A DNA stretch of 64,000 nucleotides from a virus, in IMG/VR virus record IMGVR_UViG_3300024289_000033, positions 1 to 64,000 of that record. One strand, 5' to 3'. Every line of letters begins with the position of its first letter. Position 1 is the first letter of the stretch. Positions 3,078 through 63,273 of the stretch are shown here, piece by piece. A model generated the notes under the pieces. That model was not told where the DNA came from. It worked only from the letters and a program-made list of their open reading frames with translations, and made no database searches. The position numbers and the translations under genes were made by a program.

Positions 3078-3081
3078 AAAA

Positions 3082-3109
3082 AAATACACCCAGTTTCCTG
3101 GGTGTATTT
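3082..3109 (-). terminator. Rho-independent terminator
   Basis: A perfect 12-bp stem (AAATACACCCAG / CTGGGTGTATTT) with a GAAA tetraloop, followed on the minus strand by seven T. It ends the transcript of the 838-residue gene; the next small gene starts only a few nt after it. Confidence 0.9.
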
Positions 3110-3128
3110 AGGATTATCAAATCAAATA

Positions 3129-8240: not shown

Positions 8241-8932
8241 AGATATGTGCTCCAATCAATACAGGGTGATAAAAAGTCTTTATGTGCGTGTGTAGAATAA
8301 CCAGGAATACTTGAAATTAAATTTCTTCCTCTCTTATGTAGTTCTAAAAATTTACCGTGATCTGCGGAAGGTTCAAAACCAGTTGAGAAGTGTTTATGAA
8401 CTTCTTTATCTTCTTTGAGTGTCTTGAACTTAACTGCAAAAGTATTAGTCGTAGAAGGAGTTGGCATCCAGTGAGAATACTTTGTTGCAAGAACTTTTGA
8501 CATAAAGTCTTTATACATCTCCTGATACTTATCTCCGTGATCATACAAAGTTACATATTGAACAGGTAGAGTAAATCCATCTATGAGGGCTCTATCCCAG
8601 TTTGGACGATGTACATAATCATCTTCAAGGAAATAAATGATTGTATCATCATCAAAGTCTTGTGAAAGAATGTGGTCCAGTGTCTTACAGAAACTTTCAC
8701 TTTCTTTACCGCAGTTGATTGTAATAGAACTTTCATCTTTGAGAAATGTATCTTCCTGCTTTCCATAACACTCATCAAAGATGATTGTGTAGTTGGTGGT
8801 TTCTGAGTTGAGTGTATTCTTGAAGTTTTGGAATACCTTTTCCTTGTCCCACCACTCTGGACGATTTGCTCCTGAAAGATTTACTTTGGATGTATAGCAA
8901 TGTCTTAAAAATACTTCAATTTTCATTTTCAC
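8237..8932 (-). CDS. Glycosyltransferase-like protein (GT-A type)
   Basis: 231 residues. The region DDTIIYFLEDDYVHRPNWDRAL carries an EDD motif placed like the metal-binding DXD of GT-A glycosyltransferases, after an N-terminal strand pattern (NYTIIFDECYG). No signal or membrane segment is seen, so a cytoplasmic enzyme is likely. It overlaps the acetyltransferase gene upstream by 17 nt and the GT2 fusion downstream by 4 nt. Family assignment beyond GT-A-like is not possible by eye. Confidence 0.6.
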   Translation of the reverse strand: MKMKIEVFLRHCYTSKVNLSGANRPEWWDKEKVFQNFKNTLNSETTNYTIIFDECYGKQEDTFLKDESSITINCGKESESFCKTLDHILSQDFDDDTIIYFLEDDYVHRPNWDRALIDGFTLPVQYVTLYDHGDKYQEMYKDFMSKVLATKYSHWMPTPSTTNTFAVKFKTLKEDKEVHKHFSTGFEPSADHGKFLELHKRGRNLISSIPGYSTHAHKDFLSPCIDWSTYL

Positions 8933-10230: not shown

Positions 10231-11409
10231 TTACCGATAATCATCTATGTAGGTTGTTGCTGCTGCATGAGAATATCCACTAGCAACTTGTTTCCAATTA
10301 GTTCCTCCAGCGAATGTTGTTACTGGAGTGGATCTATTGGTTGTTGTATTGTCTCCTAGTTGTCCACTACTATTACGACCCCAAGTCCATAAGGTTCCAT
10401 CAGTTTTGACTGCTGCTGTATAATTGCCAGCACTAGCAACTTGTTTCCAGTTAGTTCCTCCTGCGAATGTAGTGACTGGAGTTAGTCTATTGGTCCCTGA
10501 TGTGTTGTCTCCTAGTTGTCCATAAGAATTACGACCCCAAGTCCATAAGGTTCCATCGGTTTTAATTGCTGCAGTATGATATCCATTAGCACTAAAAGCA
10601 ACTTGTTTCCAATTAGTTCCTCCAGCGAATGTTGTTACTGGAGTGGATCTATCAGTTGCTGCATTGTCTCCTAGTTGTCCACTATTATTACGACCCCAAG
10701 TCCATAAGGTTCCATCAGTTTTGATTGCTAATGTATGTAGACTTCCTGCACTTACTTGTTTCCAGTTAGTTCCTCCTGCGAATGTGGTGACTGGAGTTTG
10801 TCTTTGGGTTGTTGTATTGTCTCCTAGTTGTCCACTACTATTACGACCCCAAGTCCATAAGGTTCCATCGGTTTTAATTGCTGCTGTATGAATTTGACCA
10901 CAAGCAACTTGTTTCCAGTTGGTTCCTCCTGCGAATGTAGTGACTGGAATGGATCTATTGGTTGATGTATTGTCTCCTAGTTGTCCATAAGCATTACTCC
11001 CCCAAGTCCATAAGGTTCCATCAGTTTTGATTGCTAATGTATGTAGATTTCCTGCACTTACTTGTTTCCAGTTAGTTCCTCCTGCGAATGTGGTGACTGG
11101 AGTGGATCTATCAGTTGTTGTATTGTCTCCTAGTTGTCCAGTAATATTATAACCCCAAGTCCATAGGGTTCCATCTGTTTTGATTGCTACTGTATTATTT
11201 ACTCCAGCAAAAACTTGTTTCCAGTTTGCTCCGCCAGCAAGTGTTGTGACTGGAGTGGATCTATTGGGTGCTGTATTGTCTCCTAGTCGTCCAGAAGAAT
11301 TATTACCCCAAGTCCATAAGTTCCCCTGCCTAAAAGCATCAGCAGGGACGAAAACATCGTCAAAGTTATATGAGAGACCGTCTTGTAAAAAGTTATAAAA
11401 GTTTGGCAT
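10231..11409 (-). CDS. RCC1-repeat protein, seven blades (copy 1)
   Basis: 392 residues. A unique 28-residue head (MPNFYNFLQDGLSYNFDD) is followed by exactly seven repeats of about 51 residues of the form [36 protein letters not shown]..(8)..AIKTDGT, then a short tail. RCC1 repeats fold into a seven-bladed propeller. The first repeat has the variant [12 protein letters not shown], as in all four copies. Blade frameworks are nearly invariant; variation is concentrated after LWTWG and between NWKQV and AIKTDG. It ends 1 nt before the next RCC1 gene. An adhesin or fibre-tip role is inferred. Confidence 0.85.
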   Translation of the reverse strand: MPNFYNFLQDGLSYNFDDVFVPADAFRQGNLWTWGNNSSGRLGDNTAPNRSTPVTTLAGGANWKQVFAGVNNTVAIKTDGTLWTWGYNITGQLGDNTTTDRSTPVTTFAGGTNWKQVSAGNLHTLAIKTDGTLWTWGSNAYGQLGDNTSTNRSIPVTTFAGGTNWKQVACGQIHTAAIKTDGTLWTWGRNSSGQLGDNTTTQRQTPVTTFAGGTNWKQVSAGSLHTLAIKTDGTLWTWGRNNSGQLGDNAATDRSTPVTTFAGGTNWKQVAFSANGYHTAAIKTDGTLWTWGRNSYGQLGDNTSGTNRLTPVTTFAGGTNWKQVASAGNYTAAVKTDGTLWTWGRNSSGQLGDNTTTNRSTPVTTFAGGTNWKQVASGYSHAAATTYIDDYR

Positions 11410-11410
11410 A

Positions 11411-12586
11411 TTATTGATAATCGTCTATGTATGTGGTTGCTGCTGTATGACCAGTTGCACCAGCAACTTGTTTCCAGTTGGTTCCTCCTGCAAATGTAGT
11501 AACTGGAGTGGATCTAGTGGTTGTTGTATTGTTTCCTAGTTGTCCGGTAGAATTTTGCCCCCAAGTCCATAAGGTTCCATCTGTTTTGACTGCTGCTGCG
11601 CTCGTTGCACCAATAAAAAAAACTTGTTTCCAGTTGGTTCCTCCTGCAAATGTAGTAACTGGAGTGGATCTAGTGGTTGCTGTATTGTCTCCTAGTTGTC
11701 CAGTAGCGTTATAACCCCAAGTCCATAAGGTTCCATCGGTTTTGATTGCTGATACAGACCACGCCCTTGCGGATAAACCAATCTGTTTCCAGTTGGTTCC
11801 TCCTGCAAATGTAGTGACTGGAGTTAGTCTTTGGGTTGTTGTATTGTCTCCTACTTGTCCATAAGAATTAAAACCCCAAGTCCACAAAGTACCATCAGTT
11901 TTGATTGCTGCTGTATATCTATATCCACAAACAACTTGTTTCCAGTTGGTTCCTCCTGCAAATGTAGTAACTGGAGTTAGTCTATTAGTGAATGCTTGAT
12001 TAATTCCTGCACCGTTAGGAATCCCCCAAATCCATAAGGTTCCATCAGTTTTTATTGCAGCAGTGTTCCAGTCACCGTTAGTAGATTGTTTCCAGTTGGT
12101 TCCTCCTGCAAATGTAGTAACTGGAGTTAGTCTATTGGTTGTTGTATTGTCTCCTATCGTTCCATTAGCATTACTCCCCCAAGTCCATAAGGTTCCATCA
12201 GTTTTGATTGCAGTAAAATTATATCCACCAGCAACTTGTTTCCAGTTGGTTCCTCCTGCAAATGTTGTGACTGGAGTGGATCTATCGGTTGTTGTATTGT
12301 CTCCTAGTCTTCCAGCATAATTACGACCCCAAGTCCATAAGGTTCCATCAGTTTTGATTGCTGCCATAGCTTGTAAATGGCAACCAGTAACTTGTTTCCA
12401 GTTTGCGCCACCAGCAAGTGTTGTGACTGGAGTGTTTCTTTGGGTTGTTGTATTGGTTCCTAGTTGTCCATAAGAATTACGACCCCAAGTCCATAAGTTT
12501 CCCTGCCTAAAAGCATCAGCAGTTACAAAAAGATCATCAACAGCAGCAGTTGTTCCAAAAATACTAGTGGAAAAATTGGTAGGCAT
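11411..12586 (-). CDS. RCC1-repeat protein, seven blades (copy 2)
   Basis: 391 residues: unique head (MPTNFSTSIFGTTAAVDDLFV), seven RCC1 repeats and the tail HTAATTYIDDYQ, nearly identical to the tail of copy 1 (AAATTYIDDYR). The fourth repeat is the most diverged (LWIWGIPNGAGINQAFTNR), which may mark a specialised loop. The head of copy 1 and this one share VxADAFRQGNLWTWG, so the two adjacent copies look like a recent tandem duplication. It overlaps the YkgJ-like gene upstream by one base. Confidence 0.85.
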   Translation of the reverse strand: MPTNFSTSIFGTTAAVDDLFVTADAFRQGNLWTWGRNSYGQLGTNTTTQRNTPVTTLAGGANWKQVTGCHLQAMAAIKTDGTLWTWGRNYAGRLGDNTTTDRSTPVTTFAGGTNWKQVAGGYNFTAIKTDGTLWTWGSNANGTIGDNTTTNRLTPVTTFAGGTNWKQSTNGDWNTAAIKTDGTLWIWGIPNGAGINQAFTNRLTPVTTFAGGTNWKQVVCGYRYTAAIKTDGTLWTWGFNSYGQVGDNTTTQRLTPVTTFAGGTNWKQIGLSARAWSVSAIKTDGTLWTWGYNATGQLGDNTATTRSTPVTTFAGGTNWKQVFFIGATSAAAVKTDGTLWTWGQNSTGQLGNNTTTTRSTPVTTFAGGTNWKQVAGATGHTAATTYIDDYQ

Positions 12587-16913: not shown

Positions 16914-18110
16914 TTAGATGCCCTGTAAATCGTCAGAGGTTCTTATTGCTGCTGTATGAGTTTCTCCACCAGAAACTTGTTTCCAATTGGTTCCTCCCGC
17001 GAATGTTGTGACTGGAGTGCATCTATTGGTTGTTGTATTGTCTCCTAGTTGTCCATAAAAATTCCACCCCCAAGTCCACAAGGTTCCATCAGTCTTGATT
17101 GCTGCAATATTATTAATAGTACAAGAAACTTGTTTCCAGTTGGTTCCTCCTGCGAAGGTAGTGATTGGAGTTAGTCTTTGAGTATTGTCATTGACTCCTA
17201 GTCCACCAAATCCAGCCGATCCCCAAGTCCATAAGGTTCCATCGGTTTTAATTGCTGCTGTATGAGTACCACAAGCAACTTGTTTCCAATTAGTTCCTCC
17301 TGCGAATGTTGTGACGGGTGTTAGTCTGTCTGTAAATGTATTATCTCCTATTGCCCTCCCACCATTAGATCCCCAAGTCCATAAGGTTCCATCGGTTTTA
17401 ATTGCTGCTGTATGGAATTGCCCCCCAGCAACTTGTTTCCAATTGGTTCCTCCTGCGAATGTCGTGACTGGAGTGGATCTATTGGTTGTCGTATTGTCTC
17501 CTATAGCACCAAAAAAACTACGACCCCAAGTCCATAAGGTTCCATCGGTTTTGATTGCTGCTGTATGATAACCTCCACAAGCAACTTGTTTCCAGTTGGT
17601 TCCTCCAGCGAATGTAGTGACTGGAGTGGATCTATTGGTTGCTGTATTGTCTCCTAGTTTTCCATAAGAATTATCGCCCCAAGTCCATAAGGTTCCGTCA
17701 GTTTTGATTGCTACACTAGTCCCCCTTCCACCAGAAACTTGTTTCCAGTTGGTTCCTCCAGCGAATGTCGTGACTGGAGTGGATCTATCGGTTGTATTAT
17801 TGGTTCCTAATTGTCCAAGATTATTACGACCCCAAGTCCATAAGGTTCCATCAGTCTTGATTGCTATTGTAACAAGGTATCCAGCAGCAACTTGTTTCCA
17901 GTTTGCGCCACCAGCAAGTGTTGTGACTGGAGTGGATCTATCGGTTCCTGTATTGTCTCCAATAGCAAATATATTACGACCCCAAGTCCATAATTCCGGA
18001 GTGATTAACTGACCAGCAATCTGCGGATACACAGACATCAAATAGTCTTTAGATATAAAACGATTACCTAAATCGCCATCAGATGAACTTGTAAAATTAA
18101 TATTAGGCAT
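16914..18110 (-). CDS. RCC1-repeat protein, seven blades (copy 3)
   Basis: 398 residues. The head (MPNINFTSSSDGDLGNRFISKDYLMSVYPQ) resembles that of copy 4 ([14 protein letters not shown]) rather than copies 1 and 2. Seven RCC1 repeats follow, the first with the [12 protein letters not shown] variant, the rest [12 protein letters not shown]. Variable positions hold RNIFA, RNNLG, DNSYG, RSFFG, SNGGR, SAGFG and WNFYG. The tail ends ETHTAAIRTSDDLQGI. It overlaps the DUF4376-like gene by 8 nt. Confidence 0.85.
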   Translation of the reverse strand: MPNINFTSSSDGDLGNRFISKDYLMSVYPQIAGQLITPELWTWGRNIFAIGDNTGTDRSTPVTTLAGGANWKQVAAGYLVTIAIKTDGTLWTWGRNNLGQLGTNNTTDRSTPVTTFAGGTNWKQVSGGRGTSVAIKTDGTLWTWGDNSYGKLGDNTATNRSTPVTTFAGGTNWKQVACGGYHTAAIKTDGTLWTWGRSFFGAIGDNTTTNRSTPVTTFAGGTNWKQVAGGQFHTAAIKTDGTLWTWGSNGGRAIGDNTFTDRLTPVTTFAGGTNWKQVACGTHTAAIKTDGTLWTWGSAGFGGLGVNDNTQRLTPITTFAGGTNWKQVSCTINNIAAIKTDGTLWTWGWNFYGQLGDNTTTNRCTPVTTFAGGTNWKQVSGGETHTAAIRTSDDLQGI

Positions 18111-32040: not shown

Positions 32041-32688
32041 TCACACGGAAGGGGTTTGGTTTTGTATCGCCTTTAGTATTTTAGCGTCTTCTTCTTTCCA
32101 TGTCAAGCGTTTTTGTAATCCACTATCAAATACAAGTAAATATCTGTGCTTTCTACTCCGATCTCTCCATTCACCCTCTTGTCCTTTTATTTTTCCACGA
32201 GAGTGTTTAGTTCCGTCTGAATAATAGAAATCTTTTTTTCGATCCGTGAGACCGTAGTACTTAAAGTTGCAAGCGCGATAAATTGTACCAGAATGGTGAT
32301 CTGAATCAGCATAAGAAAGGATTGCTTTAACTTCAGTATCTTTCCGAAATTGTCTAATCGCCTTTGACACAAACCAAGAAGTGATGTTATATTCTCGTGA
32401 CTGCGTACTAGGGTGGATGCAAAGTCTTGAGAGTTCAAAGAGTCCTTGTTGTTCGTTTCTTTCAAGTCCAAATGCTCCTTTTGCTATTTCAGGTACTGGT
32501 AATCCAGTAAATATACAAACTCCTCGAAGACCGCCAATATTGAGAGGAGAGAACTCATTTTTCTCAAAGAGTCCATAATTATATCCAGACTTAAAACTTT
32601 TGGAAATATCTTTTAAGTAATGATATTGCAATAAAAGATCTTCTGATTGTTTCTTTGTTACTTTATCAATGTAGAAGTCGGACTTCAT
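32041..32688 (-). CDS. Mom-like adenine modification protein
   Basis: 215 residues with the GNAT-like layout of the phage Mu Mom family: an early QYHYLK (21-26), ELSRLCIHPS (85-94), and the hallmark stretch YADSDHHSG..IYRACNFKYYG (126-146). Mom converts DNA adenine to N6-(methylcarbamoyl)adenine and blocks many restriction enzymes. All recognisable segments are present, so a working DNA-modification enzyme is likely, but the exact modification is inferred. It follows two small genes with a 4-nt overlap. Confidence 0.75.
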   Translation of the reverse strand: MKSDFYIDKVTKKQSEDLLLQYHYLKDISKSFKSGYNYGLFEKNEFSPLNIGGLRGVCIFTGLPVPEIAKGAFGLERNEQQGLFELSRLCIHPSTQSREYNITSWFVSKAIRQFRKDTEVKAILSYADSDHHSGTIYRACNFKYYGLTDRKKDFYYSDGTKHSRGKIKGQEGEWRDRSRKHRYLLVFDSGLQKRLTWKEEDAKILKAIQNQTPSV

Positions 32689-37346: not shown

Positions 37347-37961
37347 TTAACCTCCAATACTACCAATTAATTTTTTAAGACCATCAATAAATTGTAAAGG
37401 ACTTACTGCTCCAGAAATAGGTCCAAAAATAAAATCACAATCCTCCAACCAATTTCCAGGTCCTCTAATTTTAATATTTCCAGGAGAGGCAACTTGAACT
37501 TGTTTTTCTGCTGCAAGATTAATATTTGACGCTGCTTGAATATTAATATTTGTTCTTGAATTAATTTCAATACCACCGTTGGCAGCAATTTGAACAAAAC
37601 CAGTAGTATTACTACTACCACTAGCAATTAACTCAATGTCCTTTGCAAATATTCTGATTCTACCATTTGGAGCACCTATAATCATATCACCATTTTTTGC
37701 ATAGGTTACAAAAGAAACTCCATCAACAGGAGTGGTTCCACAAAGAATTTGGTATACTCCAGGGCATGAATTCCAAGTGGATCCATTAAATTTTCCAGAA
37801 CTACCAAACCCCATAAAGTGATCAGATGCCTTAGATGGATTTGTATTGCGAATCAATGCTGCAAGTTTAGTTCCATCAAATGCAACATCACCAAATCTTA
37901 ATTCACCTTGTGTTGTGCCTATACGAGAATAGTCCCAACTTGTTTGATGTCTATCACTCAT
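37347..37961 (-). CDS. Baseplate spike-like protein (beta-helix)
   Basis: 204 residues. The second half (GRIRIFAKDIELIASGSS..FVQIAANGGIEINSRTNINIQAASNINLAAEKQVQVASPGNIKIRG) has the 8-residue period of the gp5/VgrG trimeric beta-helix needle. It lies next to the hub genes and overlaps the 771-residue gene by 4 nt. No lysozyme domain is present; the wall-degrading activity of this baseplate is probably in the 1020-residue protein. Confidence 0.65.
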   Translation of the reverse strand: MSDRHQTSWDYSRIGTTQGELRFGDVAFDGTKLAALIRNTNPSKASDHFMGFGSSGKFNGSTWNSCPGVYQILCGTTPVDGVSFVTYAKNGDMIIGAPNGRIRIFAKDIELIASGSSNTTGFVQIAANGGIEINSRTNINIQAASNINLAAEKQVQVASPGNIKIRGPGNWLEDCDFIFGPISGAVSPLQFIDGLKKLIGSIGG

Positions 37962-40273
37962 TCTCTTTTACCTACACAATCTACAACTTCCAAAATTCCA
38001 ACTCCAGTATCTCTTCTAGTAATTAAATTATTTCCTCTTAAGAATCTAAAGACTGGTTTAATTATTGCATTATATCCAGTATTACTATCTATACCAATCT
38101 CTGGAAGTTCAGTAAATCCTATACCAGTATTTTCTATAGTAATACCAATAAGTTGACCATTATACCCAAACTTTGGAGTTAATTTTGTTCCATTATCTGG
38201 AGTAACAACAATTTTATCCCCATCTTTATATCCAAATCCAGGATCAGTAATTTTAACATCAACAAGCTCAGATATTACGGGATAAATTCCTAGGTTTGGA
38301 TCTTGAATATCTTCTGGAGGACACTCTGGAGCAGTGCTTGTCGTATCAAAAGCAGCAACAAATGGAGACTGTCCTGCAAACTGAACATAGTCACCTGTTT
38401 TGATTTGCATGATCTCACCAGGACTGTATGGATACTCCCAATTACCATCAGATCTTCTTATTGTTGATTGACATCTACTTGCCCATACTCTTCCATCACC
38501 TCCTCTACTTCCATCTGGTTTAGGTAGATAGTCAGTTCCACTATCAATCACAACAATTTTAGTAATTCCTTTCACAATCTCTCCTGGTTTTGGTCCGATA
38601 TCAGTACCACCAGTTCCTCCAACAATTCCACCAGTACCACCAGTACCACCAGTACCACCAGTTCCACCACCAGTACCATCAGTTCCAGTTGTCGGTGGTA
38701 CATAAGGAACATCACCAATTTCAGCAATAGCAACGGCACCTTTTCCTTTTCCACAAGAATCTTCAATATTCACAAATGGTGCTTTTGTATATCCATATCC
38801 AGAAGAAACAATATCTATACCTAAGATGTCACCTGCAGCACTTACAATTGCATTTCCAGTAGCACCTTTTCCACCTCCACCCCAGAATGAAATTTTTGGT
38901 GGTCCACAAAGAATTGGTCCAACATTACAAGAGTCACCAACACCAGCAATCATGGAATTAATATCAAGATTAAACTTGAAATTATTCGGATCTACTATTG
39001 ATGTCGCTGAAGAAATAATTGATTTTGCTGAGTTCATAATTTTACTCACATCCAAAGAAATTCCTGGAGAAGAAGATCCTTCTAAAGGACTCCATTCGGT
39101 AACTTCAGCACATTCTGCTTTCACATCACAAGTAAGAAAATCTAAAAGAGAAGAAATAGCATCAAGAATAGAATCAATTAATCCTTTAATAGCAGAAATA
39201 GTTCCCAAAACAGCATTTAGAATACCATTAACTGCAGATAATATCTGACCAATTATCTGACCAACTAATTCAGTCAAAAACTTTTCGACCGCACAGGTTG
39301 CCATATTAACATAACGGTCAACAATAGAAGTTAAAAATTTCTCTATTAGTCCAGCAAGATTATCTAAAATTTTATTAAAGAGGCAAAGAATTAAATCAAT
39401 TGCTGTTGCTTTTTTTTCTTGAAGTTGAAATCTTTGATTTAAAAATGCTGCTGCTTTTGCCTTATTAAGAGCCCAATTAATGCCCCTAATTACCATATCT
39501 TTTATATAACCAATCAACCATTTTACATATCCAGTTATTTTATCAGCAAATCCATTGATTACTGATTTGGCTTCGTTTAAAAAGTTTTCTGCATTTGAAA
39601 GGGCACTATTAGGTCCATTGAGTTTATTTCTTAAAGCCTCAATGTCTTTCTTCATATTCTTAAGACCATTATTGATAGCATTACTATCAAAAGGTTTACA
39701 TGCAGACGGAACAGCAAAATTTGAAGCTAACTTTGCAAAGTCATCATCAGACTGAGAAAACTTACAATCTGCTCCTGCTCCATTCAAGTTTGCAACTTTT
39801 GATTCCGCAATATTTGACGAAGGAACAACTGCCCATTGGCCAAGTCCAGCAGAAAATCCAGATTTTGGTGTGCAACCTTTTTGATTCTGACCTTCTTTCT
39901 TTTCAGGAAAAACACATAAAGAGTTATTAATTAAACTGGTAATATAGTACTGCTTATTAAATCTACTCTTATGAATATTTACAAAAGAATCTGCAGCAAG
40001 TGGCATATACATCTGTAGACCAGCTTGCCCTGAAGGAAAATCAGTCTGTCTTATTGCATCAATTAACTGATCTTCTGGAGTATCTCCAGAATTTAAAAAA
40101 CACAAACGAACCTTATATCTTTCAGACCAACCTACAGCATCTTTTCCCTTCTCACCACCGCGATTAGGAATACAAAATTGTTTATAGGTTTCGGCAGATA
40201 TTTGACCTATTCCAATATATTCATACTCTTTATCAAAATCAAAGATATAAGGTTTGTTTGAGTAAAATGTCAT
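37958..40273 (-). CDS. Large virion protein of the baseplate-hub cluster
   Basis: 771 residues. A beta-rich start (FYSNKPYIFDFDKEYEYIGIGQISAETYKQFCIPNRGG), a helical middle with coiled and amphipathic segments (KNMKKDIEALRNKLNGPNSALSNAENFLNEAKSV; EKFLTELVGQIIGQILSAVNGILNAVLG), then a GGTGGTGG linker and a beta-rich end. It is Cys-containing. The length, position and repeats fit a baseplate or spike component, but I cannot tie it to a T4 gene. Confidence 0.65.
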   Translation of the reverse strand: MTFYSNKPYIFDFDKEYEYIGIGQISAETYKQFCIPNRGGEKGKDAVGWSERYKVRLCFLNSGDTPEDQLIDAIRQTDFPSGQAGLQMYMPLAADSFVNIHKSRFNKQYYITSLINNSLCVFPEKKEGQNQKGCTPKSGFSAGLGQWAVVPSSNIAESKVANLNGAGADCKFSQSDDDFAKLASNFAVPSACKPFDSNAINNGLKNMKKDIEALRNKLNGPNSALSNAENFLNEAKSVINGFADKITGYVKWLIGYIKDMVIRGINWALNKAKAAAFLNQRFQLQEKKATAIDLILCLFNKILDNLAGLIEKFLTSIVDRYVNMATCAVEKFLTELVGQIIGQILSAVNGILNAVLGTISAIKGLIDSILDAISSLLDFLTCDVKAECAEVTEWSPLEGSSSPGISLDVSKIMNSAKSIISSATSIVDPNNFKFNLDINSMIAGVGDSCNVGPILCGPPKISFWGGGGKGATGNAIVSAAGDILGIDIVSSGYGYTKAPFVNIEDSCGKGKGAVAIAEIGDVPYVPPTTGTDGTGGGTGGTGGTGGTGGIVGGTGGTDIGPKPGEIVKGITKIVVIDSGTDYLPKPDGSRGGDGRVWASRCQSTIRRSDGNWEYPYSPGEIMQIKTGDYVQFAGQSPFVAAFDTTSTAPECPPEDIQDPNLGIYPVISELVDVKITDPGFGYKDGDKIVVTPDNGTKLTPKFGYNGQLIGITIENTGIGFTELPEIGIDSNTGYNAIIKPVFRFLRGNNLITRRDTGVGILEVVDCVGKRE

Positions 40274-40502: not shown

Positions 40503-41774
40503 TTAAACTTTTACACCAAAAGAATCTCTAACTAGAGATAATCCAGTATAAGTTTGTGTGGGAGAAATGTAATGACATAACTCCAATATCATATATATAC
40601 CACTATCTTTGGGACTTCTAATCGGAGTATCCTTTGTAGACAGTTCTGGTAAGTCGCACTGAATAATATCTCCAGCATGTAAACTAAAGTCTGCTGGTAT
40701 TTTGATTTCTGTCATAAAGTTTAATCTTTGTCGATAGTTTTGTATTGATTGACCTATTGTTTCGGAAACATTGAAGTTTTCTTCTTTGGATTTTTTCAAC
40801 TGTTGCTCCACAGAATCACCAGTTCCATATGCCATACCAATAGATTTTGGAGAAGCAAAGAAATTAGTTGGTTGTTTTGTATATTCGGTATAATCAGGAA
40901 GATCTAAACCTGCTAAAACTTTTCCAGCATCTTCAGCAATCAAAGGAGAATTTTTTTCATAAACAAATTTGGTAAAATCAAAAGTTTCTGTAACAGATCC
41001 AAAGGCACTATAGTCTAACTGCTTTTCAACATCAGCAACTCTTACTGCATTTGCATCTAAGATTTTATCATCATATCCTGCTGGTATTTCTTCATCAACT
41101 TTAAAGTTATAGATATATTTCTTGATTGGTTTCCCCTTAAATATCTCATCTGCAGATTTGAAATGAAATCCTTTTGCAGTTTGCCAAAAGAAAAATCCAG
41201 CAGTCTTTCCACCTACCGTTGGAATTGCGATTGGTTGAAGTTCTAAGATAACTTCAAATGGTTCTTTTCTTAATCCAAAATCAGAAAAAGTATTTAGAGT
41301 TTCACTAATGTCTAACTTCTTATCTGTTTTTAAATCATCCTTCAGAATACTTTCAACTGTCTTGGAAATTTTACCGCTATATCTTTTCGTTACTCTATTC
41401 TTTAAAAGTTTATTATCTAAAAACTCTTTAGAAACAATTTGAGCAATAAAACTAGATGACTTAAAAGATCTTGTTTCAAAGTTTTTATGAGACAATCTTA
41501 ATGAATTTCCGTCAGAAAAATCTAAAACATTTCCTACAGCATCAGTGTACTTGAAGGAAACCTTTTCTCCTCCCTGAAGTTTAAGTGCTTCTGCTGCAGA
41601 AAGTCCAGATTGTCCAGTGTCAACAACGGCAGCACTAATTCTAATAGTATGATCAATCATACTTTCACGATACTCAATTCTAGGAGCACCAGTTCTCACA
41701 TCAAAAGAACTGCCACCAGTGTTTGATGATATTTCAAATAGATTTGCTGTAGATGCTTCCTTACTTCCAGGCAT
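40503..41774 (-). CDS. Baseplate hub protein, gp27-like
   Basis: 423 residues. The early MIDHTIRISAAVVDTGQ, the repeated FSDGNSLRLSH.. barrels, NRVTKRYSGKISKTVESILKDDLK and the late LHAGDIIQCDLPELS / YMILELCHYISPTQTYTGLSLVRDSFG are the pattern of the gp27/gpD hub fold. T4 gene 27 also lies next to gene 29-type and 26/51 genes, as here. A GGTAAATA motif precedes it. The gp27 identity is inferred from pattern and order. Confidence 0.65.
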   Translation of the reverse strand: MPGSKEASTANLFEISSNTGGSSFDVRTGAPRIEYRESMIDHTIRISAAVVDTGQSGLSAAEALKLQGGEKVSFKYTDAVGNVLDFSDGNSLRLSHKNFETRSFKSSSFIAQIVSKEFLDNKLLKNRVTKRYSGKISKTVESILKDDLKTDKKLDISETLNTFSDFGLRKEPFEVILELQPIAIPTVGGKTAGFFFWQTAKGFHFKSADEIFKGKPIKKYIYNFKVDEEIPAGYDDKILDANAVRVADVEKQLDYSAFGSVTETFDFTKFVYEKNSPLIAEDAGKVLAGLDLPDYTEYTKQPTNFFASPKSIGMAYGTGDSVEQQLKKSKEENFNVSETIGQSIQNYRQRLNFMTEIKIPADFSLHAGDIIQCDLPELSTKDTPIRSPKDSGIYMILELCHYISPTQTYTGLSLVRDSFGVKV

Positions 41775-41798: not shown

Positions 41799-44700
41799 TT
41801 ACACCACGGGTACAGGTGTTTCTATTGGGACAAAAGCAACTTTTTCAATAAAGTAAATTGTGTCCGAAGTATCCGTCTTTCTTATGTCACTATTTGCAAA
41901 AGCAACTGTAGAAGAAGTTGGTTGAATTGGTGACAATGAAGCGTTTGCTCCAGGTCCTGCTGAGTTCCACAATAACCATTTACCATTTCTCCATTCATAA
42001 TAACTTCCATCTGCTGCTCTTTTTTTCTCACCTTCTTTTGTTCCACTACCCAATCCAAATTCTTTAACAGTTGCTCTGAGATATGTATTTGATGCATCTG
42101 TAACAGAAATTTCTTGATTTGTTCCTAAGAATCCTCCACCTTTTTTAATAAATTTACCTGTTTCTGGGTCATAAACAACTCCTTTGTTACCTATTGGTGA
42201 AGGTGTTGATGTTGGTGGTTGGTTTGGTTGTCCTGGTGGATTTTGTTTAGGAGCAGATCTTAATTTTTCTACAGTTACATTGATAACTCCAGTAGAGTGA
42301 CTTGCTATTTTACCAAATGCACCATGACTCAAATCTATTATTCTACCAAGTTTATCAAATCCACCAGTGTCATTAACTCTAACTACAACACTCTTACCAT
42401 TTGCATTGTTTGTAACTTTTGCCCAAAATGGTTGTCTGCCGTCAAATCCAGGACTAATCATTGCAGCTGTCATTTTTTTAGAATCAAAAATTTCACCACT
42501 AGCAGTTTGTCTTCCTTCCCAATAACTATCATTTGGTCCCCCATAATAACTTGCTTGTCCAGAAATCTTTTTTCCTGTTCCTTGTAAATCTGGAGGAACA
42601 ACTGTTGCTTGTTGTCTTTGGTACTCAAGAATTTTTTGTGGATTTGCAGGTCCTCCACTTAAATGTCCAAGAAGATATAAGGTTCCTCTTTGATCTTGGA
42701 TGATTGTTACATTTCCATACCCATCATATCTCGGATCTGTACCTTCTTTAACATACTTTACAAACTTAAGACCTCCAGTTAGTTTGATTGGCTTCCCTTC
42801 GGGCATTGCCCAATCTTCACCTGCGTGTGTTTTCCCCCATCTTGGACCCGGACCAGAAGTAATAACCCAAGAACTCATTGGTTTACCACCAACAATAATA
42901 TTATCTCTAACATTGCTTGGAAGATCTGTTTTAGCACCTGTCAAATTTTCAAAGTGAATATGGGGACCTGTCGAGTATCCAGTTGAACCAACATATCCAA
43001 TAACCTCACCTTTTACATCTATTCCATCCACACCATCTAATGAATCTCCCGGTGTAACTCCAGGAACAGTATCTTTACCATCCAAATTCAATTCTCTATT
43101 TAAGTTCTGAAGTATTTTTGATGCAGAACTCTCAATAGAAATTGCAAGAGCATTAGAAATAAATCTACCAATTCTTTCTCCAATACTTAACCCACTTCCA
43201 AGTTGCTTTGTTGGAACAGATCCACCATTTGCCATCGCAATGGTTTTGGAAATATCACCAAAAGAATTATTAAGTTCCATGTTTACTGCATTCTCAACAA
43301 CAGAACCAAATACATCACCGATTGATCTTGCAAGTTTCTTATCTGGTTTTTGTCCGAGGGTCATGTCAATGCCAGCACCAAACATTGCACCAGCGAGTCC
43401 ATTGATAGACCTCATCTTCTTCACATCTTCAGAACTTCTCTTCAGTGCTCTTAATGCGCTTTTCTTCCCTGGTTCATCTGTTCCATATAACTCTTCGATT
43501 CTTAATTTACCGCCAGAATCTTTTCCTGGTTGTGTTTTTTGAGACTGAATTTTTGGTGGAGTTTTTCTTGGTATAGTTTTAAGTCTTCTACTAGGTTTAG
43601 ATAAAGATTGATTTCTTCCACTAACAGTTCCACCTTGCGCTTTTGCTTGAACTGGTTTTGTATTATAACCAACAACAGTGTCATATAAAGCTTTACCAAT
43701 CCAATCGCCAGCAAAACCACCAACAAACATTCCAACACCAGCACCAAGTCCAAATGTTGTTCCTCCAGCAAGAGCAATACCAATTCCTTGTCCTATAGCA
43801 CTTCCCACTGCACCAGCAGCTGCTCTAGATGGTTTTTCACGAAACACAACAGTATCAATAATAAAACCAATTAATGATCCAATAACTGGTACAGCAACCA
43901 ATGATTTCAAAGATTGTTTTGCACCTTGAGTTGCTAACTGTTTTGTTGTTTGTTTTGCCGCTTGTTGAGCAGCGACTGATTGTTCAAATGTTAATTTTTT
44001 CCTTGCAAGTTGTGATGCAAAATCACCACCCGCTTTAGATTGACCGGGTAAACGATATCTTCCGGGAGTCATTGCAGTTCCAGCACCAAATCCTCCAGTT
44101 GGTTTTGGAACTACGCCACCTAAAGTTTTCGAAACACTTGCTCCCAAACCACCAGCAGATCCACCTGGAGTTTTTGGCGCAGTGCTTGCAATCAACATTG
44201 CAGCACCAATTGCACCATTCAATACGACATTTAAGTTCTTTGAGAACTCATCAAAAGTCTTCTGTGCTCCTTCTCCACCAATCTGTTTAACAAAGTCTCT
44301 TGTTTGGTCATATGCTTTATAACCACGATCAATAAAATCAACCACACCCTGAAGTAAATTTTTAGCAAATCCCTCAATAAATTTACCTACAGGTTCAAGA
44401 ACTTTTCCAAACTCCATAAGTTTGGGAAGTAATTCTCCATATTGATTGAAAAGATAACCAAGTAAAGTAAATCCAATAAAACGATTAATTCTATCAAAGA
44501 TACTTTGTCCAGGAATTGATCCTATGAAATCAGATTTAATATTATTTTTTTTAACTTTTTCTTCTAATTTTTTTTCTTTCTGTTCTCTTCTAGATTTTTC
44601 TTCTTCTTTTCTTTTTGTAGATGCTTCCCTTTGATCTAGTAAAAGATTGTTGTTTATAATCTTACTTAAACTTATAATTTTTTTCTTAACTACAACTAGA

Positions 44701-44861
44701 CTTCCAGGTTCATCAGTTCCCTTTTTATCTACCGGTTTTAAATCAGAACCTGTTATCTTTTTTACTGAGATACTTTTAACAGGTACAAGAAACTTTGGTT
44801 TCTCTATTGCACTACTTTCTTTACTTGGGGGTAAAAGTTTTTTGGAATCTATAACTGCCAT
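41799..44861 (-). CDS. Tail protein with permuted M23 peptidase and RlpA-type barrel
   Basis: 1020 residues. A basic coiled segment (about 75-110) leads into FDRINRFIGFTLLGYLFNQ (about 120-138), a helix shared with the next gene upstream. Gly-rich hydrophobic helices follow. Residues about 620-740 carry an M23/LytM peptidase in permuted order: GSTGYSTGPHIHFE (H634, H636) first, then HAGED (H679, D683) and GHLS (H733). Residues 767-866 are an RlpA-like double-psi barrel with VRVNDTGGF (D831). The tail end has SVTDASNTYLRATVKEFG. It probably cuts the host wall during injection. Confidence 0.85.
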   Translation of the reverse strand: MAVIDSKKLLPPSKESSAIEKPKFLVPVKSISVKKITGSDLKPVDKKGTDEPGSLVVVKKKIISLSKIINNNLLLDQREASTKRKEEEKSRREQKEKKLEEKVKKNNIKSDFIGSIPGQSIFDRINRFIGFTLLGYLFNQYGELLPKLMEFGKVLEPVGKFIEGFAKNLLQGVVDFIDRGYKAYDQTRDFVKQIGGEGAQKTFDEFSKNLNVVLNGAIGAAMLIASTAPKTPGGSAGGLGASVSKTLGGVVPKPTGGFGAGTAMTPGRYRLPGQSKAGGDFASQLARKKLTFEQSVAAQQAAKQTTKQLATQGAKQSLKSLVAVPVIGSLIGFIIDTVVFREKPSRAAAGAVGSAIGQGIGIALAGGTTFGLGAGVGMFVGGFAGDWIGKALYDTVVGYNTKPVQAKAQGGTVSGRNQSLSKPSRRLKTIPRKTPPKIQSQKTQPGKDSGGKLRIEELYGTDEPGKKSALRALKRSSEDVKKMRSINGLAGAMFGAGIDMTLGQKPDKKLARSIGDVFGSVVENAVNMELNNSFGDISKTIAMANGGSVPTKQLGSGLSIGERIGRFISNALAISIESSASKILQNLNRELNLDGKDTVPGVTPGDSLDGVDGIDVKGEVIGYVGSTGYSTGPHIHFENLTGAKTDLPSNVRDNIIVGGKPMSSWVITSGPGPRWGKTHAGEDWAMPEGKPIKLTGGLKFVKYVKEGTDPRYDGYGNVTIIQDQRGTLYLLGHLSGGPANPQKILEYQRQQATVVPPDLQGTGKKISGQASYYGGPNDSYWEGRQTASGEIFDSKKMTAAMISPGFDGRQPFWAKVTNNANGKSVVVRVNDTGGFDKLGRIIDLSHGAFGKIASHSTGVINVTVEKLRSAPKQNPPGQPNQPPTSTPSPIGNKGVVYDPETGKFIKKGGGFLGTNQEISVTDASNTYLRATVKEFGLGSGTKEGEKKRAADGSYYEWRNGKWLLWNSAGPGANASLSPIQPTSSTVAFANSDIRKTDTSDTIYFIEKVAFVPIETPVPVV

Positions 44862-46957
44862 TATGATGCTCCTACTAGATCAGAAATACCCAATGACAAT
44901 GCAATTTTTGATCTGGAATCATTATTACTTGAAATAATGAACTCAGGAATTTTAGAACCTCTCGGAATAGAAGGTGTTTTAGTAGGTGATTTAATGGGTG
45001 GCAATACTGTATAAGTTGTTTTTGATACGATCACACGAGGACCTGGAGCAGGTGCTTTGGATTGTGGACCCATAGGAAATCCCATTCTTTTAGCATCATC
45101 TAGAGTTGGACTAAATGCTGGTTCAGGAAAAGCCATATCCATAAGAACACTACCAACTCCACCACCAAGACCTTTTAAAACTTTAGGAGCAGATGAGAAA
45201 GATCTTAATGGTCTTTCTATTGCCTGACGAATTGCAGGAGTTGGTCCGGTCTTTACCATATTTGGAGTGAATGCCTTGAATGGATTCCACCCTCGATATC
45301 CAGTTGCACCAGATTGAAATGCTTTATTACTTCTCGTAATTTGTAAGGCATCGTCACCAAATAGTGTTTTTGGATTTGGATTTTTTCTAGCATACTGTCC
45401 AAGTCCACCAAACTTTGCAGTATTTTCATTTGGAACTCTTACATTTCTTCCACGATTCCACCAATTCATAAATCCACGCATAGGATTAAATCCACTCCCA
45501 CTGCTAGATGAAGTAGGAACAGTGTTAGAACCAATCATTCCACCACCTGCAGCGAACTGAATATTGTTTGCTATCTTTGGAATATTAGTTCCGCCAGCTT
45601 TTTTATTTAAATCTAAAAAGAAATTTGCTCCATGCTTATCAACTGCCTTTTTAGACATCACAACTTCACCTGGTTGTGCAGCAATTAATTGTGTATCAGG
45701 ACCAGCACCTGTTATTTTTACACCACTATCGTTAGAAATTCCACCACCACCTTCAAATGCAATATCATTTACATCAATTTCCCTATCAACTAAACCACCA
45801 CCAAAGAAGGATCTTTTACCAACTAATCCTCCCCCATTGTAGTACATAGCGGACGGAGTTGGCAACCCTATTGGATTTTTAGGTCCGCCTGGAGCATTTA
45901 AACTTTGATTTGCAAATGATGCTCCAAGTTTTTGATACCAAGGAGTTTCTTTACTTTGTAATGTTTTATCTATTTCTTTTTGAGACTTCTGAGTGAGAGG
46001 TTTCATTCTCTCAGATTCTTTTATTTTTACAGCTCCACCAATAGCGGCCGCTGTATATAAACTTAACCAAGGATTAGCAGCAATAAATCTTCCAATTTGA
46101 GGAATAAATCCTCTGAGCATTTTAAGAGTAGTTCTTACAAACTTACCAAAAGGTGTAGCAAATAATCCATATGCAGTCAGTAATGCAGGCCACCAATCCT
46201 TTAAAAATCTACCAAGAGATTTTACTTTATCTGCATTCTTAGGATCACTAAACCATTTTACAAGTTGATTAAATGCATAACCAAGCAAAGTAAACTTAAT
46301 AAATCTAAAGATGCGATCAAGTATTCCTTGAGCTGGAGCAATAATTTTCTTTGCAAGTGACTTTAATTGAGTTAGAGGTTTTTCTAGATCCCCTTCGCGT
46401 TGTCTTCTTCTACGATCTTCAGATTTCTTTTTCTCTTCTTCTGTTCTCTTTTTCTTTTCCTTATTTTGAAGTGTCAAACTTTTTAAAATATCATCCAGTG
46501 CTTTTTCAATATCTTGTATATCCTTAGAAGAATCTTGTGTTTCTGTAGGAGTTACTGGAACAATCGCTTTACTTGCAAGAAAAAACTTGTCTCTAGAAAT
46601 TTGTATTGGTCCAGTTGTACCTATAGTTTCTGCTGTTATTTTTTTCTTATTTAATTTAAATCTACCAGTTTTGCCCTTTACTCTTTTAAATTCACTGACA
46701 AGTAACTCATCTTCTTCAGTAGAAAGTTTCTTATCAAAACTTCTTGAAGCAACTAATTTTTCTTTCAGAAGAGAAGTGTATGTACCATAGTCAATATCAA
46801 AAACATCCTCTATCCCAAGAAGTTTTAAAATTCTTTCATCTATATTTTCATCAACAAGATCCGTTTCTTTAGTACCTTCATACAAAGCAAGAGCGGATTC
46901 TTTCTTAGCTTCCGCTCTTATACTTGCAAGTAGGTCGTCCAGATCGTCAGGTCCCAT
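44861..46957 (-). CDS. Tail tape-measure/hub-like protein
   Basis: 698 residues. A charged N-terminal region with KKRTEEEKKKSEDRRRRQREGD, then ILDRIFRFIKFTLLGYAFNQ (about 211-230), a close copy of a segment in the 1020-residue protein. Hydrophobic helices (WWPALLTAYGLFATPFGKFV) and a C-terminal GVKITGAGPDTQLIAAQPGEVVMSKKAVDKHGANFF region are typical of cyanophage tape-measure-like tail proteins. It starts 11 nt inside the small gene after gp26 and shares one base with the next. Confidence 0.7.
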   Translation of the reverse strand: MGPDDLDDLLASIRAEAKKESALALYEGTKETDLVDENIDERILKLLGIEDVFDIDYGTYTSLLKEKLVASRSFDKKLSTEEDELLVSEFKRVKGKTGRFKLNKKKITAETIGTTGPIQISRDKFFLASKAIVPVTPTETQDSSKDIQDIEKALDDILKSLTLQNKEKKKRTEEEKKKSEDRRRRQREGDLEKPLTQLKSLAKKIIAPAQGILDRIFRFIKFTLLGYAFNQLVKWFSDPKNADKVKSLGRFLKDWWPALLTAYGLFATPFGKFVRTTLKMLRGFIPQIGRFIAANPWLSLYTAAAIGGAVKIKESERMKPLTQKSQKEIDKTLQSKETPWYQKLGASFANQSLNAPGGPKNPIGLPTPSAMYYNGGGLVGKRSFFGGGLVDREIDVNDIAFEGGGGISNDSGVKITGAGPDTQLIAAQPGEVVMSKKAVDKHGANFFLDLNKKAGGTNIPKIANNIQFAAGGGMIGSNTVPTSSSSGSGFNPMRGFMNWWNRGRNVRVPNENTAKFGGLGQYARKNPNPKTLFGDDALQITRSNKAFQSGATGYRGWNPFKAFTPNMVKTGPTPAIRQAIERPLRSFSSAPKVLKGLGGGVGSVLMDMAFPEPAFSPTLDDAKRMGFPMGPQSKAPAPGPRVIVSKTTYTVLPPIKSPTKTPSIPRGSKIPEFIISSNNDSRSKIALSLGISDLVGAS

Positions 46958-47114: not shown

Positions 47115-47138
47115 ATGGACCATACTTATGCGAAAAAA
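47108..47138 (-). promoter_or_regulatory. Predicted -1 ribosomal frameshift site
   Basis: On the minus strand the heptamer T-TTT-TTC (47132-47138) is in the correct phase for gp26, two codons before its stop. Ten nt later comes the perfect palindrome GGTCCATATGGACC (47108-47121), able to form a 5-bp hairpin with an AUAU loop. The -1 frame continues without a stop through the 55-residue gene, giving a 299-residue fusion. Confidence 0.75.
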
Positions 47139-47845
47139 CTGGATAAACCCTCCAGAACAACTTCACTCTCAACTTCAGTTTTTGGATTCTTAACCTTCAC
47201 TGAATGCGAAAGTTTAGGCATTGTTTCAAAGAACTTTTCAATCTGCTTGAACTGAGACGAATTCATTTGTTCTAAAAAGTCAATAAGTTCTTTCTTAGTG
47301 ACATCGCCAGAAACCCAAATTTCATCTTCAGTATAAATTTTATCAATACAACTTGCAACAAGATCAAAAGATTGATCCATATTTGCATCACCAGAAAAAT
47401 CAAAATTATTTTTAATGAATTGATCCAATGAAGGATATTTCATTTCCATAATAATATTATCATCTACTTTAATTTTATTTGTATGATCTTCATTCTTTTG
47501 AATTTTGATTTCATCAATATTAATTTTTACGGAAACATAAGTTTCCCCATCATCCGGACAAATAATATTAACTTCGACTTCTTCTCCTACAGATTTACCT
47601 CGAATATTTAAAAAGAGATATTCAATATCAAAAGTAGGTAACGATTCTACTTTAATATTTTTTGTTAGAATACAACTTTTAATTACATTTTTAATTGCTG
47701 TTGTAATCTCTTTGGTATTCTCGCTTTCTAATGCAAGAACAAGAAGTTTTTCTTCCTTAACTAAAAAAGGTCTATATTGAATTTCTTTTCCAGTAGAAGG
47801 AAGTTCCAACTCATATGTTGGTGTAGAGATCTTTGGTAAAGGCAT
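47126..47845 (-). CDS. gp26: Baseplate hub assembly protein gp26
   Basis: 239 residues, MPLPKISTPTYELELPSTGKEIQYRPFLVKEEKLLVLALES, the start typical of the T4 gp26/T4 baseplate family (PF12322). The C-terminal part (SFDLVASCIDKIYTEDEIWVSGDVTKKELIDFLEQMNSSQFKQIEKFFETMPKLSHSV) resembles the G part of G/GT tail-assembly chaperones. An AATAAATA motif lies upstream. The reading frame ends two codons after a slippery TTTTTTC, so a longer -1 product is predicted. Confidence 0.85.
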   Translation of the reverse strand: MPLPKISTPTYELELPSTGKEIQYRPFLVKEEKLLVLALESENTKEITTAIKNVIKSCILTKNIKVESLPTFDIEYLFLNIRGKSVGEEVEVNIICPDDGETYVSVKINIDEIKIQKNEDHTNKIKVDDNIIMEMKYPSLDQFIKNNFDFSGDANMDQSFDLVASCIDKIYTEDEIWVSGDVTKKELIDFLEQMNSSQFKQIEKFFETMPKLSHSVKVKNPKTEVESEVVLEGLSSFFA

Positions 47846-60400: not shown

Positions 60401-61462
60401 TTAGAGTGCGTTTCCTCGCGGCAGAACCTCTTCTGGGAACACAAAGTTCTCATGAGGTTGATCGACTGGTGCCATCCAAGCGCGAAGACCTTCATTTAAA
60501 AGAATATTCTTTGTATAGAAGGTTTCGAACTCAGGATCTTCTGCTGCTCTAACTTCCTGACTAACAAAGTCGTAAGCACGAAGATTGAGAGCAAGACCGA
60601 TAATCCCGATAGAAGATGTCCAGAGACCCATGACGGGAACAAAGAGCATAAAGAAATGTAGCCAACGCTTATTGCTAAAAGCAATGCCGAAGATTTGAGA
60701 CCAAAATCTGTTCGCAGTGACCATACTATAAGTCTCTTCCTCTTGCGTGGGTTCAAAAGCTTTAAAAGTGTTTGCTTGATCGCCATCTTCAAAAAGCGTG
60801 TTTTCTACGGTAGCACCATGAATTGCACAAAGTAGTGCTCCGCCTAGAATACCAGCAACTCCCATCATATGGAAGGGGTTGAGGGTCCAGTTGTGGAAAC
60901 CCTGAAGGAACAACAGAAACCTGAAGATAGCAGCAACACCAAATGAAGGTGCGAAGAACCAACTGGATTGTCCCAGAGGGTACATCAGGAACACGCTGAC
61001 GAACACAGCAATAGGACCAGAGAAAGCAATAGCATTGTACGGACGAATACCTACCAGACGAGCAATCTCAAACTGGCGGAGCATAAATCCAATCAGGCTG
61101 AAAGCCCCGTGGAGCGCCACAAAAGTCCATAGTCCCCCAAGTTGGCACCACCTGACGAAATCCCCTTGAGACTCAGGACCCCAAAGTAGAAGAAGAGAAT
61201 GACCCATAGCGTCAGCAGGGCTGCTGACTGCCGCTGTGAGAAAATTGCAGCCTTCAAGATAAGAAGACGCCAACCCGTGGGTATACCATCCTGTGACAAA
61301 CGAAGTGCCAGTAAGCCAGCCACCAAGCGCAAGATAAGCAGTGGGAAAAAGTAGTAGTCCAGACCAACCCACAAATACAAAGCGATCTCGTTTAAGCCAG
61401 TCATCCAGGACATCGAACCAACCTCTCTGAGAAATGGGCGGTGAAAGAGTTGAAGAAGTCAT
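60401..61462 (-). CDS. psbD: Photosystem II D2 protein
   Basis: 353 residues, full length. All D2 hallmarks are present: five transmembrane helices, Tyr161 (the YD position, offset by one), the chlorophyll- and iron-binding HxxxG..HG motifs ([26 protein letters not shown]) and the conserved [14 protein letters not shown] end. It keeps photosynthesis going during infection. A strong AGGAGG site lies upstream. It has its own terminator and a dual promoter. Confidence 0.98.
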
Positions 61463-62193: not shown

Positions 62194-63273
62194 TCAACCG
62201 ATTGCAGGAGCAGTCAGAGCAACAGGAGTGTTCTGTGCAGTAGCAAGGTCCAGAGGGAAGTTATGAGCATTGCGCTCGTGCATTACCTCCATTCCCAGTC
62301 CAGCACGGTTAAGGACATCTGCCCAAGTATTGAGCACACGACCCTGACTATCCAGAATGCTCTGGTTAAAATTCAGACCGTTGAGATTAAAAGCCATCGT
62401 GCTTACACCAAGAGCAGTGAACCAGATGCCAACCACAGGCCAGGCAGCCAGGAAGAAGTGCAGCGAACGGGAGTTATTAAAGGAAGCATATTGAAAAATA
62501 AGGCGTCCGAAATAACCGTGAGCAGCAACGATGTTATAGGTCTCTTCTTCTTGACCGAACTTGTAACCATAGTTCTGTGACTCGTTCTCGGTGGTTTCAC
62601 GAACCAGCGAGGAAGTAACCAGAGAACCGTGCATAGCACTGAACAGAGAACCACCGAACACACCAGCAACTCCAAGCATATGGAAGGGGTGCATCAGGAT
62701 GTTGTGCTCTGCCTGGAACACAAGCATATAGTTGAAGGTGCCACTGATACCCAGAGGCATTGCGTCAGAGAAGGAACCCTGACCAAAAGGATACACCAAG
62801 AACACTGCACTCGCAGCAGCAACAGGTGCAGAGTAAGCAACGCAGATCCAAGGACGCATACCCAAACGGTAGGAAAGTTCCCACTCACGACCCATATAGG
62901 CATAGATGCCGATGAGGAAGTGGAACACAACCAGTTGGAAAGGTCCACCGTTGTAAAGCCACTCATCTAGGGAAGCAGCTTCCCAGATGGGGTAAAAGTG
63001 CAGTCCAATTGCGTTGGACGAAGGAATCACAGCACCAGAGATGATGTTGTTTCCGTACATCAGAGAACCAGCAACTGGTTCGCGGATGCCATCAATGTCC
63101 ACTGGGGGAGCACCGATGAATGCGATGATGAAACAAGTTGTTGCAGCAAGCAGACAAGGGATCATCAGCACACCGAACCAACCCACATAGAGGCGGTTGT
63201 CGGTTGAAGTTACCCAGTTGCAAAACTGTTCCCAAGTATTCGATTGTCGTTGTTGTGAAATTGTAGCAGTCAT
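62194..63273 (-). CDS. psbA: Photosystem II D1 protein
   Basis: 359 residues, complete and intron-less. Tyr161, His198, His215, His272, Ser264 and the Mn-cluster ligands Asp170, Glu189, His332, Glu333, His337, Asp342 and Ala344 are all in place; a 15-residue extension for CtpA follows Ala344. Residue 130 is Glu, the form linked to high-light D1. It replaces damaged host D1. The promoter combines a sigma70-like and a TATAAATA late element. Confidence 0.98.

Follow-up and report, generated by a model that had tools for sequence, protein, structure and literature searches.

A putative circularly permuted M23 peptidase and an RlpA-type barrel in a probable baseplate-region protein of a T4-like cyanophage

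In a stretch of viral DNA of 64,000 nucleotides (positions 1 to 64,000 of the IMG/VR record IMGVR_UViG_3300024289_000033; hereafter the window), one gene appears to encode an M23 metallopeptidase whose catalytic fold is circularly permuted. We read its product as a virion protein from the baseplate hub cluster of a T4-like cyanophage, in which the permuted peptidase is followed by an RlpA-type double-psi beta-barrel and is delivered for wall cutting, and we give this reading as a whole a probability of roughly 0.72. The permuted M23 fold is itself very likely, and peptidase activity is probable, to judge from the sequence. The reading frame encodes 1020 amino acids (aa) with no interruption along its full length, and is laid out as follows.

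41799-44861, minus strand: 1020-aa virion protein, presumably of the tail or baseplate region, with a permuted M23 domain and a double-psi barrel (DPBB)
44166-44792, minus strand: conserved N-terminal region, aa 24-232, phrog_35997 (E 1.8e-31), with homologues in cyanophage records
42627-43049, minus strand: circularly permuted M23 domain, aa 605-745 (modelled as aa 605-760), from profile order and model
42945-43013, minus strand: first M23 half, aa 617-639, GxxIGxxGxTGxSTGPHIHFE, profile positions 65-87, with H634 and H636
42654-42830, minus strand: second M23 half, aa 678-736, HAGED to GHLS, profile positions 2-54, with H679, D683 and H733
42270-42560, minus strand: RlpA-type double-psi beta-barrel, aa 768-864, with D831 and E790 kept and the RlpA histidine replaced by M801

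The evidence for permutation begins with the order of the motifs. The HxH motif of the M23 family (PF01551) is present as H634/H636 in GPHIHFE, the Hx3D zinc motif as H679-D683 in HAGED, and the additional histidine as H733 in GHLS; D831 of the barrel follows in VNDTGGF. In canonical enzymes Hx3D comes first, then a histidine about 30 residues before HxH, and then HxH itself (motifs and spacing as in the M23 review, PMC9662197), but here HxH at 634-636 precedes both 679-683 and 733. The Pfam Peptidase_M23 profile matches the whole protein at 40.8 bits (cut-off 28.7), a score that is the sum of two stretches. A record-wide search placed these at 43013-42945 (profile positions 65-87, E 3.0e-7, 26.7 bits) and at 42830-42654 (positions 2-54, E 2.3e-5, 20.6 bits); each alone is below the Pfam cut-off, and their order is reversed relative to the profile. 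In a shuffle control, for which profiles were built from 29 canonical M23 domains, the native blocks scored 37.0 and 40.2 bits, while the best of 2000 protein shuffles reached 6.9 and 4.8. The original prediction, that the M23 motifs run in reverse order with all five catalytic or zinc residues kept, is therefore borne out by the two-block match, and every one of these residues stands at the position given for it. An intact canonical M23 domain elsewhere in the chain had been named as the observation that would count against it; the profile search found no other M23 match in all 65,430 bases of the record, itself perhaps only part of a genome.

A similar exchange of blocks is seen when a profile of permuted M23 domains (A5) is aligned with solved enzymes. 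On the canonical peptidase NMB0315 (3SLU), positions 53-128 of A5 fall on chain residues 225-300 and positions 5-38 on residues 307-338, and a second solved M23 enzyme (6MUK) is also matched in two blocks of swapped order. A solved 'internal protein' (PDB 9K2V, chain E) gave a weak match to the second half of A5 (E 0.014). When 369 gammaproteobacterial genomes were scanned, with ten of the first-look candidates scored in many of them, matches at E ≤ 1e-9 turned up in 38. Of the matches listed, a single one is full length (positions 2-139), that in Acinetobacter proteolyticus (G013), the centre genome picked for having the domain; every other one starts at position 42 at least and covers the second half alone. 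This is how canonical enzymes should match, so the permuted order seems to be uncommon and A5 able to separate permuted from canonical domains.

Structure prediction points the same way. AlphaFold2, given an alignment of 11 rows (the window protein, its orthologue L007, the viral contig L132 and eight Acinetobacter-type rows), folded aa 605-760 as one domain, with a mean predicted local distance difference test score (pLDDT) of 83.2 and a predicted template modelling score (pTM) of 0.79. In a structural second look (VIA), the top two of 992 aligned chains were both M23 enzymes, namely StM23 (9GY1; Z 5.3, root-mean-square deviation (rmsd) 2.1 Å, 74 residues) and lysostaphin (4QPB; Z 5.3, rmsd 2.6 Å, 80 residues), and the third row had Z 3.3. 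Both superpose on model residues 45-49 to 134-135, that is, on the second half only. The model also matched four predicted viral structures at E ≤ 0.001, including proteins of S-TIM5 (TMq 0.56, rmsd 9.0, 155 alignment columns including gaps) and of Synechococcus phage P60 (TMq 0.61, rmsd 8.9, 151 columns including gaps), both of which carry the permuted order themselves.

Relatives of the whole 1020-aa protein were found at 30 loci, where the M23 domain is permuted in five and canonical in 18, while the other seven have different, truncated or undecided content. We called an order permuted when HxH or HxD precedes HxGxD and neither recurs in the following 170 residues; by this criterion it is also found, beyond L007, in the Aurunvirus phages S-TIM5, S-TIM54 and S-TIM66, in contigs L132 and L133, in Moraxella phage Mcat23 and in Acinetobacter prophages. 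These copies bear on the possibility that an assembly or recombination artefact set two pieces of M23 genes side by side by chance. The window does come from a virus record among publicly collected contigs and is not known to have an isolate behind it, but four of the permuted orthologues (L003-L006) are 100% identical, L007 is 84% identical in the domain, and the isolate genomes of S-TIM5, S-TIM54, S-TIM66 and P60 share the order. Because independent copies exist, an artefact is untenable, and we give it next to no credence. The proposal of a circular permutation is thus well supported by profile order, by a confident one-domain model and by independent relatives.

Rather than being confined to one odd protein, the permuted M23 domain belongs to a wider set that recurs in Aurunvirus, in Moraxellaceae tape-measure proteins and in P60-like podoviruses. 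S-TIM5, S-TIM54, S-TIM66 and L132/L133 have HxH followed by HxGxD, with no HxH within the next 170 residues; in the three phages and L132, AHL follows HxGxD and all five residues are kept. Aurunvirus-type carriers (L033, L034, L038 and L132) end in a Phage_lysozyme2 domain, and the match in S-TIM61 resembles that in S-TIM5. A viral-contig scan with the S-TIM5 domain alone gave no relatives. The Moraxellaceae tape-measure proteins have the permuted order with HLD for HxH at all 80 loci that were kept from 139 relatives, and these are 96-100% identical to the Acinetobacter phage domain. In the genome scan seven of 11 loci were permuted and the other four (L141-L144) canonical; seven named Acinetobacter genomes and Mcat23 also have the permuted order. 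In gp33 of P60 and its relatives in DSL-LC07 and S-CBP1, HLD is followed by HxxRGSxG[IV]D and then by FVHG or FLHG, and the sole match of the podovirus profile (A8) to solved structures, in swapped blocks, was non-significant (E 0.16).

A third lineage (L029, L030, L160 and L161 of S-CAM3, L159 of S-T4, and contigs L162-L169) shows HxH, then a histidine about 9-13 residues before an aspartate, then HG, and is possibly a divergent branch of permuted M23 domains. Its model is weak (pLDDT 68.1, pTM 0.75), no M23 enzyme was among the 50 structural matches listed, and against A5 the HxH stretch alone aligned (probability 11.9). Proteins of this lineage lie at 6913-7383 (L029), 3001-3549 (L161) and 3968-4474 (L159). 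The P23-45 tape measure, the proteins of S-B23, ACG-2014f, S-PM2 and Vibrio phage MS32, and four faecal phage records proved to be canonical, so they lend no support.

The spread of carriers also bears on whether the two halves complete one site within the chain or, by a domain swap, complete M23 sites with neighbouring subunits of an oligomeric hub. The hub of the Anabaena myophage A-1(L) is a trimer (PMC10966104), and the halves are joined by a short linker, of about 27 residues in the window protein and 23 in S-TIM54; both points would suit a swap. The monomer, however, is predicted confidently as one domain (the pTM given above), and the same order stands in carriers as different as tape-measure and podovirus virion proteins. 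We therefore regard a swap as quite improbable and retain a site formed within a single chain.

In such a chain the domain would now start in the loop that leads, in canonical enzymes, from the GHL histidine to the GxxIG strand. The linker would tie the former C-terminal strand, past HIHFE, to what used to be the N-terminal one (ITSxxGPR). On folding, H679, D683 and H636 would come together as zinc ligands, and H634 and H733 would activate water as in LytM, H733 now standing 97 residues after HxH rather than before it. These roles are assigned by the rule in the M23 review, in which two histidines and an aspartate from the H(x)nD and HxH motifs hold the zinc, the first HxH histidine does not bind the metal and has been proposed as an activator of water, and another histidine, in a stretch about 30 residues ahead of HxH, may assist (PMC9662197). 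The shared zinc site is predicted from the motifs alone. The tail would carry the protein to the periplasm during infection, where the barrel may bind or cut glycan strands and the peptidase would cut peptide cross-links, most likely those between D-Ala and meso-diaminopimelic acid (mDAP, or Dpm). A D-Ala-Dpm cross-link is expected in the Gram-negative-type wall of cyanobacteria. Our preference for this bond follows from the nearest solved relatives, as NMB0315 and ShyA, which are among the best solved profile matches of A5, are given in the same review as D,D-endopeptidases that act on D-Ala-Dpm (PMC9662197).

Several observations weigh against this reading. Foldseek gave no solved structure at E ≤ 0.001 for the aa 605-760 model; a Z of 5.3 is modest, as values below 8 may reflect merely a common arrangement, and sequential aligners are unable to superpose both halves of a permuted fold. 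The domain of the window type is rare, with three viral-contig scans returning only the same five contigs, and we infer the virion location of the protein from gene order and homologues. In S-TIM5 (L033) and S-TIM66 (L038), HLGDD and a degenerate M23 piece in canonical order (residues about 430-484, profile positions 45-79) lie upstream, with which the HxH of these proteins could in principle pair; a motif scan found no upstream HxGxD in the window protein or in S-TIM54. Finally, the Moraxellaceae and podovirus relatives have aspartate in place of the zinc-ligand histidine of HxH, and the podoviruses have also altered HxGxD; activity may accordingly be missing from parts of the set. The last point touches on whether the domain is M23-like in fold without being a working peptidase, and binds peptidoglycan or is structural, like the inactive LytM factors; EnvC, an activator of amidases, is listed in the review among the LytM factors (PMC9662197). 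All five residues are nevertheless kept in the window protein, L007, S-TIM5, S-TIM54, S-TIM66 and L132, which would be unlikely under drift, and we consider an inactive domain unlikely in the window protein. The permuted M23 domain appears to be real, rare and recurring, and it most likely serves the tail of this phage as a working wall-cutting enzyme.

The remaining points on the unfavourable side concern the barrel. A double-psi barrel containing D831 does follow the M23 domain, as originally claimed (DPBB_1 at aa 768-864, 54.4 bits against a cut-off of 28.8), and it retains Asp831, E790 and TASGE. Met801, however, aligns with the histidine of TAAH in RlpA PA4485 and in the A-1(L) hub, the L007 barrel likewise has methionine there, and the score against the NCBIfam rlpA subfamily (TIGR00413) is 74.4 bits, below the cut-off of 82.15. 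The TAAH histidine and the VND aspartate are what we take to be the catalytic residues of the RlpA active cleft. With Met801 in place of the histidine it is doubtful that the barrel is catalytic, even though D831 and E790 are present, and we rate the binding and the cutting of glycan as equally likely putative roles. No SPOR domain was among the Pfam matches of the 1020-aa protein. The idea of a two-step wall-cutting device has a precedent in the A-1(L) hub, which pairs M23 with DPBB and lyses cells, but the barrel here is without the RlpA histidine, which makes the second step uncertain.

Comparison of the orthologous loci suggests that the wall-enzyme cassette is swapped between phages within this gene. 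Half of the 18 canonical orthologues have Pfam M23 above the cut-off (12 records were searched), and the other nine were assigned by motif order (L009, L012, L013, L015, L016, L017, L019, L025 and L027). The seven remaining loci comprise one with M15_3 (L010), one with VanY (L028), one for which Pfam gave no match at E ≤ 0.01 (L021), two undecided (L029 and L030) and two cut short (L023 and L032); the whole Pfam library was run on eight of the 30. The slot thus holds canonical M23 (L008), M23 with a SleB-type hydrolase (L022), M23 with Phage_lysozyme2 (L011), M15_3, VanY, or permuted M23 with DPBB. Nine of 14 loci from one viral-contig scan with the permuted domain (L150-L158) were canonical. 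In the Synechococcus phages ACG-2014f and S-B23 a protein with M23 stands at the equivalent position, after gp26, gp51 and one other gene, and in S-PM2 the M23 protein lies two genes before gp5; orthology in these three phages is based on position and domain.

How often the permutation arose is a harder question. In a tree of 47 rows and 107 columns the permuted or canonical label requires two changes, against a mean of 14.6 for shuffled labels (n = 500, none as low), although the clustering is aided by near-copies and S-TIM54 is a stray of the permuted label. For this tree 35 canonical loci were tried, six were dropped for a motif-pattern mismatch (L150 and L152-L156), and L012, L018, L025, L157 and L158 were left outside. 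Approximately unbiased (AU) tests rejected neither a single permuted clade (p 0.433) nor a clade without S-TIM54 (p 0.531), and they also allowed the window pair to group with L026/L027 (p 0.317) or with those canonical orthologues that the tree contained (p 0.288). The linker GGKPxSxxxITSxxGPR was set aside as a mark of common permuted ancestry, as canonical orthologues have a similar stretch: L026, L027 and the S-B23 protein show a GG..P-like stretch before TS/SS and GWRWG. Tentatively, and with the odds somewhat against it, we suggest that permuted M23 domains might form a subfamily of single origin, specialised for proteins that pass through the tail or leave the particle by ejection, namely those of the baseplate region, tape measures and internal virion proteins of podoviruses, and spread across contractile-tailed, siphovirus-like and short-tailed phages. 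The shift of the chain ends into a loop next to the substrate groove might then have altered the way in which the tail holds, controls or directs the enzyme, and S-CAM3 and S-T4 may hold a divergent branch with a stretched H-to-D loop.

The neighbouring genes are those of a baseplate hub cluster, as listed here.

47126-47845, minus strand: baseplate hub protein, phrog_150, gp26-like by position
44861-46957, minus strand: upstream neighbour, 698 aa, a likely paralogue through a shared phrog_35997 region (E 1.4e-9)
40503-41774, minus strand: downstream tail protein, phrog_350 (E 1.9e-62)
37958-40273, minus strand: homologue of the baseplate hub subunit and tail lysozyme, gp5-like, phrog_1922 (E 1.8e-46)

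The N-terminal half of the 1020-aa protein has long hydrophobic stretches rich in glycine, and its homologue in S-SCSM1 is labelled a tape measure protein in one record and a carboxypeptidase in the other; together with gene order, this suggests that the protein probably sits in the tail lumen or the hub. The photosystem II D1 gene psbA occurs twice in the window (60401-61462, 353 aa, and 62194-63273, 359 aa, both minus strand), and the record also has a PhoH gene; the two psbA genes and phoH identify the phage as a cyanophage. Elsewhere in the window, three proteins with RCC1-like matches (phrog_7220/4219; 10231-11409, 11411-12586 and 16914-18110, minus strand) are perhaps fibre or adhesin genes. 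A Mom-like DNA modification protein (phrog_1384) is encoded at 32041-32688, minus strand, near genes for tRNA-Thr and tRNA-Leu, and in the product of 6702-8255, minus strand, the N-terminal half resembles a glycosyltransferase and the C-terminal part matches a family that bears the label DNA methyltransferase.

Few wall-cutting folds have been studied as much as M23, from which enzybiotics are also drawn. A permutant that recurs in nature would show which of its loops tolerates new chain ends, would provide ready scaffolds, and would assign a function to virion proteins of S-TIM5, P60 and S-CBP1 that are labelled structural or hypothetical. Furthermore, orthologous cyanophage proteins hold the canonical or the permuted form in one and the same slot, which allows a direct comparison of what permutation does to tail delivery and specificity.

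When set beside known systems, the window protein shares Hx3D, HxH and the additional histidine with M23 peptidases such as LytM, lysostaphin, NMB0315 and ShyA, but has HxH before Hx3D and GHL, so that the chain ends and the loop order differ. The term 'permut' does not occur in the main text of the M23 review (PMC9662197), and a literature search, to which subscription journals were mostly closed and which may therefore have missed a prior mention, found no report of a permuted M23 or LytM domain; permutation has been described for NlpC/P60 (PMC6403190) and for the lipocone (PMC12419801). The S-TIM5 virion structural protein has the same permuted order and all five residues, but differs in its C-terminal Phage_lysozyme2, in its degenerate upstream M23 piece and in having no DPBB match. 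The tape-measure proteins of Acinetobacter Vieuvirus and Moraxella also share the order, with HLD for HxH and a carrier with TMP_3. The window barrel resembles RlpA PA4485 in its DPBB_1 match above the cut-off, its aspartate and TASGE, and differs in TAAM for TAAH, in scoring below the rlpA subfamily cut-off and in having no SPOR among its Pfam matches. The closest precedent for the pairing is the A-1(L) hub gp15 (PDB 8KEA), described with an 'endoglucanase' (266-430) and a 'peptidase' (736-899), both of which lysed Anabaena cells, single changes of conserved residues lowering expression or activity (PMC10966104). By Pfam these are DPBB_1 (292-379) and an M23 domain of canonical order (810-883), in which a motif scan did not find Hx3D. 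Both proteins combine DPBB and M23 in one chain and belong, the window protein presumably, to the cyanophage baseplate or its region; the hub, however, has LLHM before STGTHLHIE, carries M23 after the barrel and keeps TAAH, and in the homologue search it was matched by the barrel alone (aa 767-854 of the window protein). Thus, the occurrence of DPBB with M23 in a cyanophage baseplate was already known from A-1(L), and what is new here is the permuted M23 domain.

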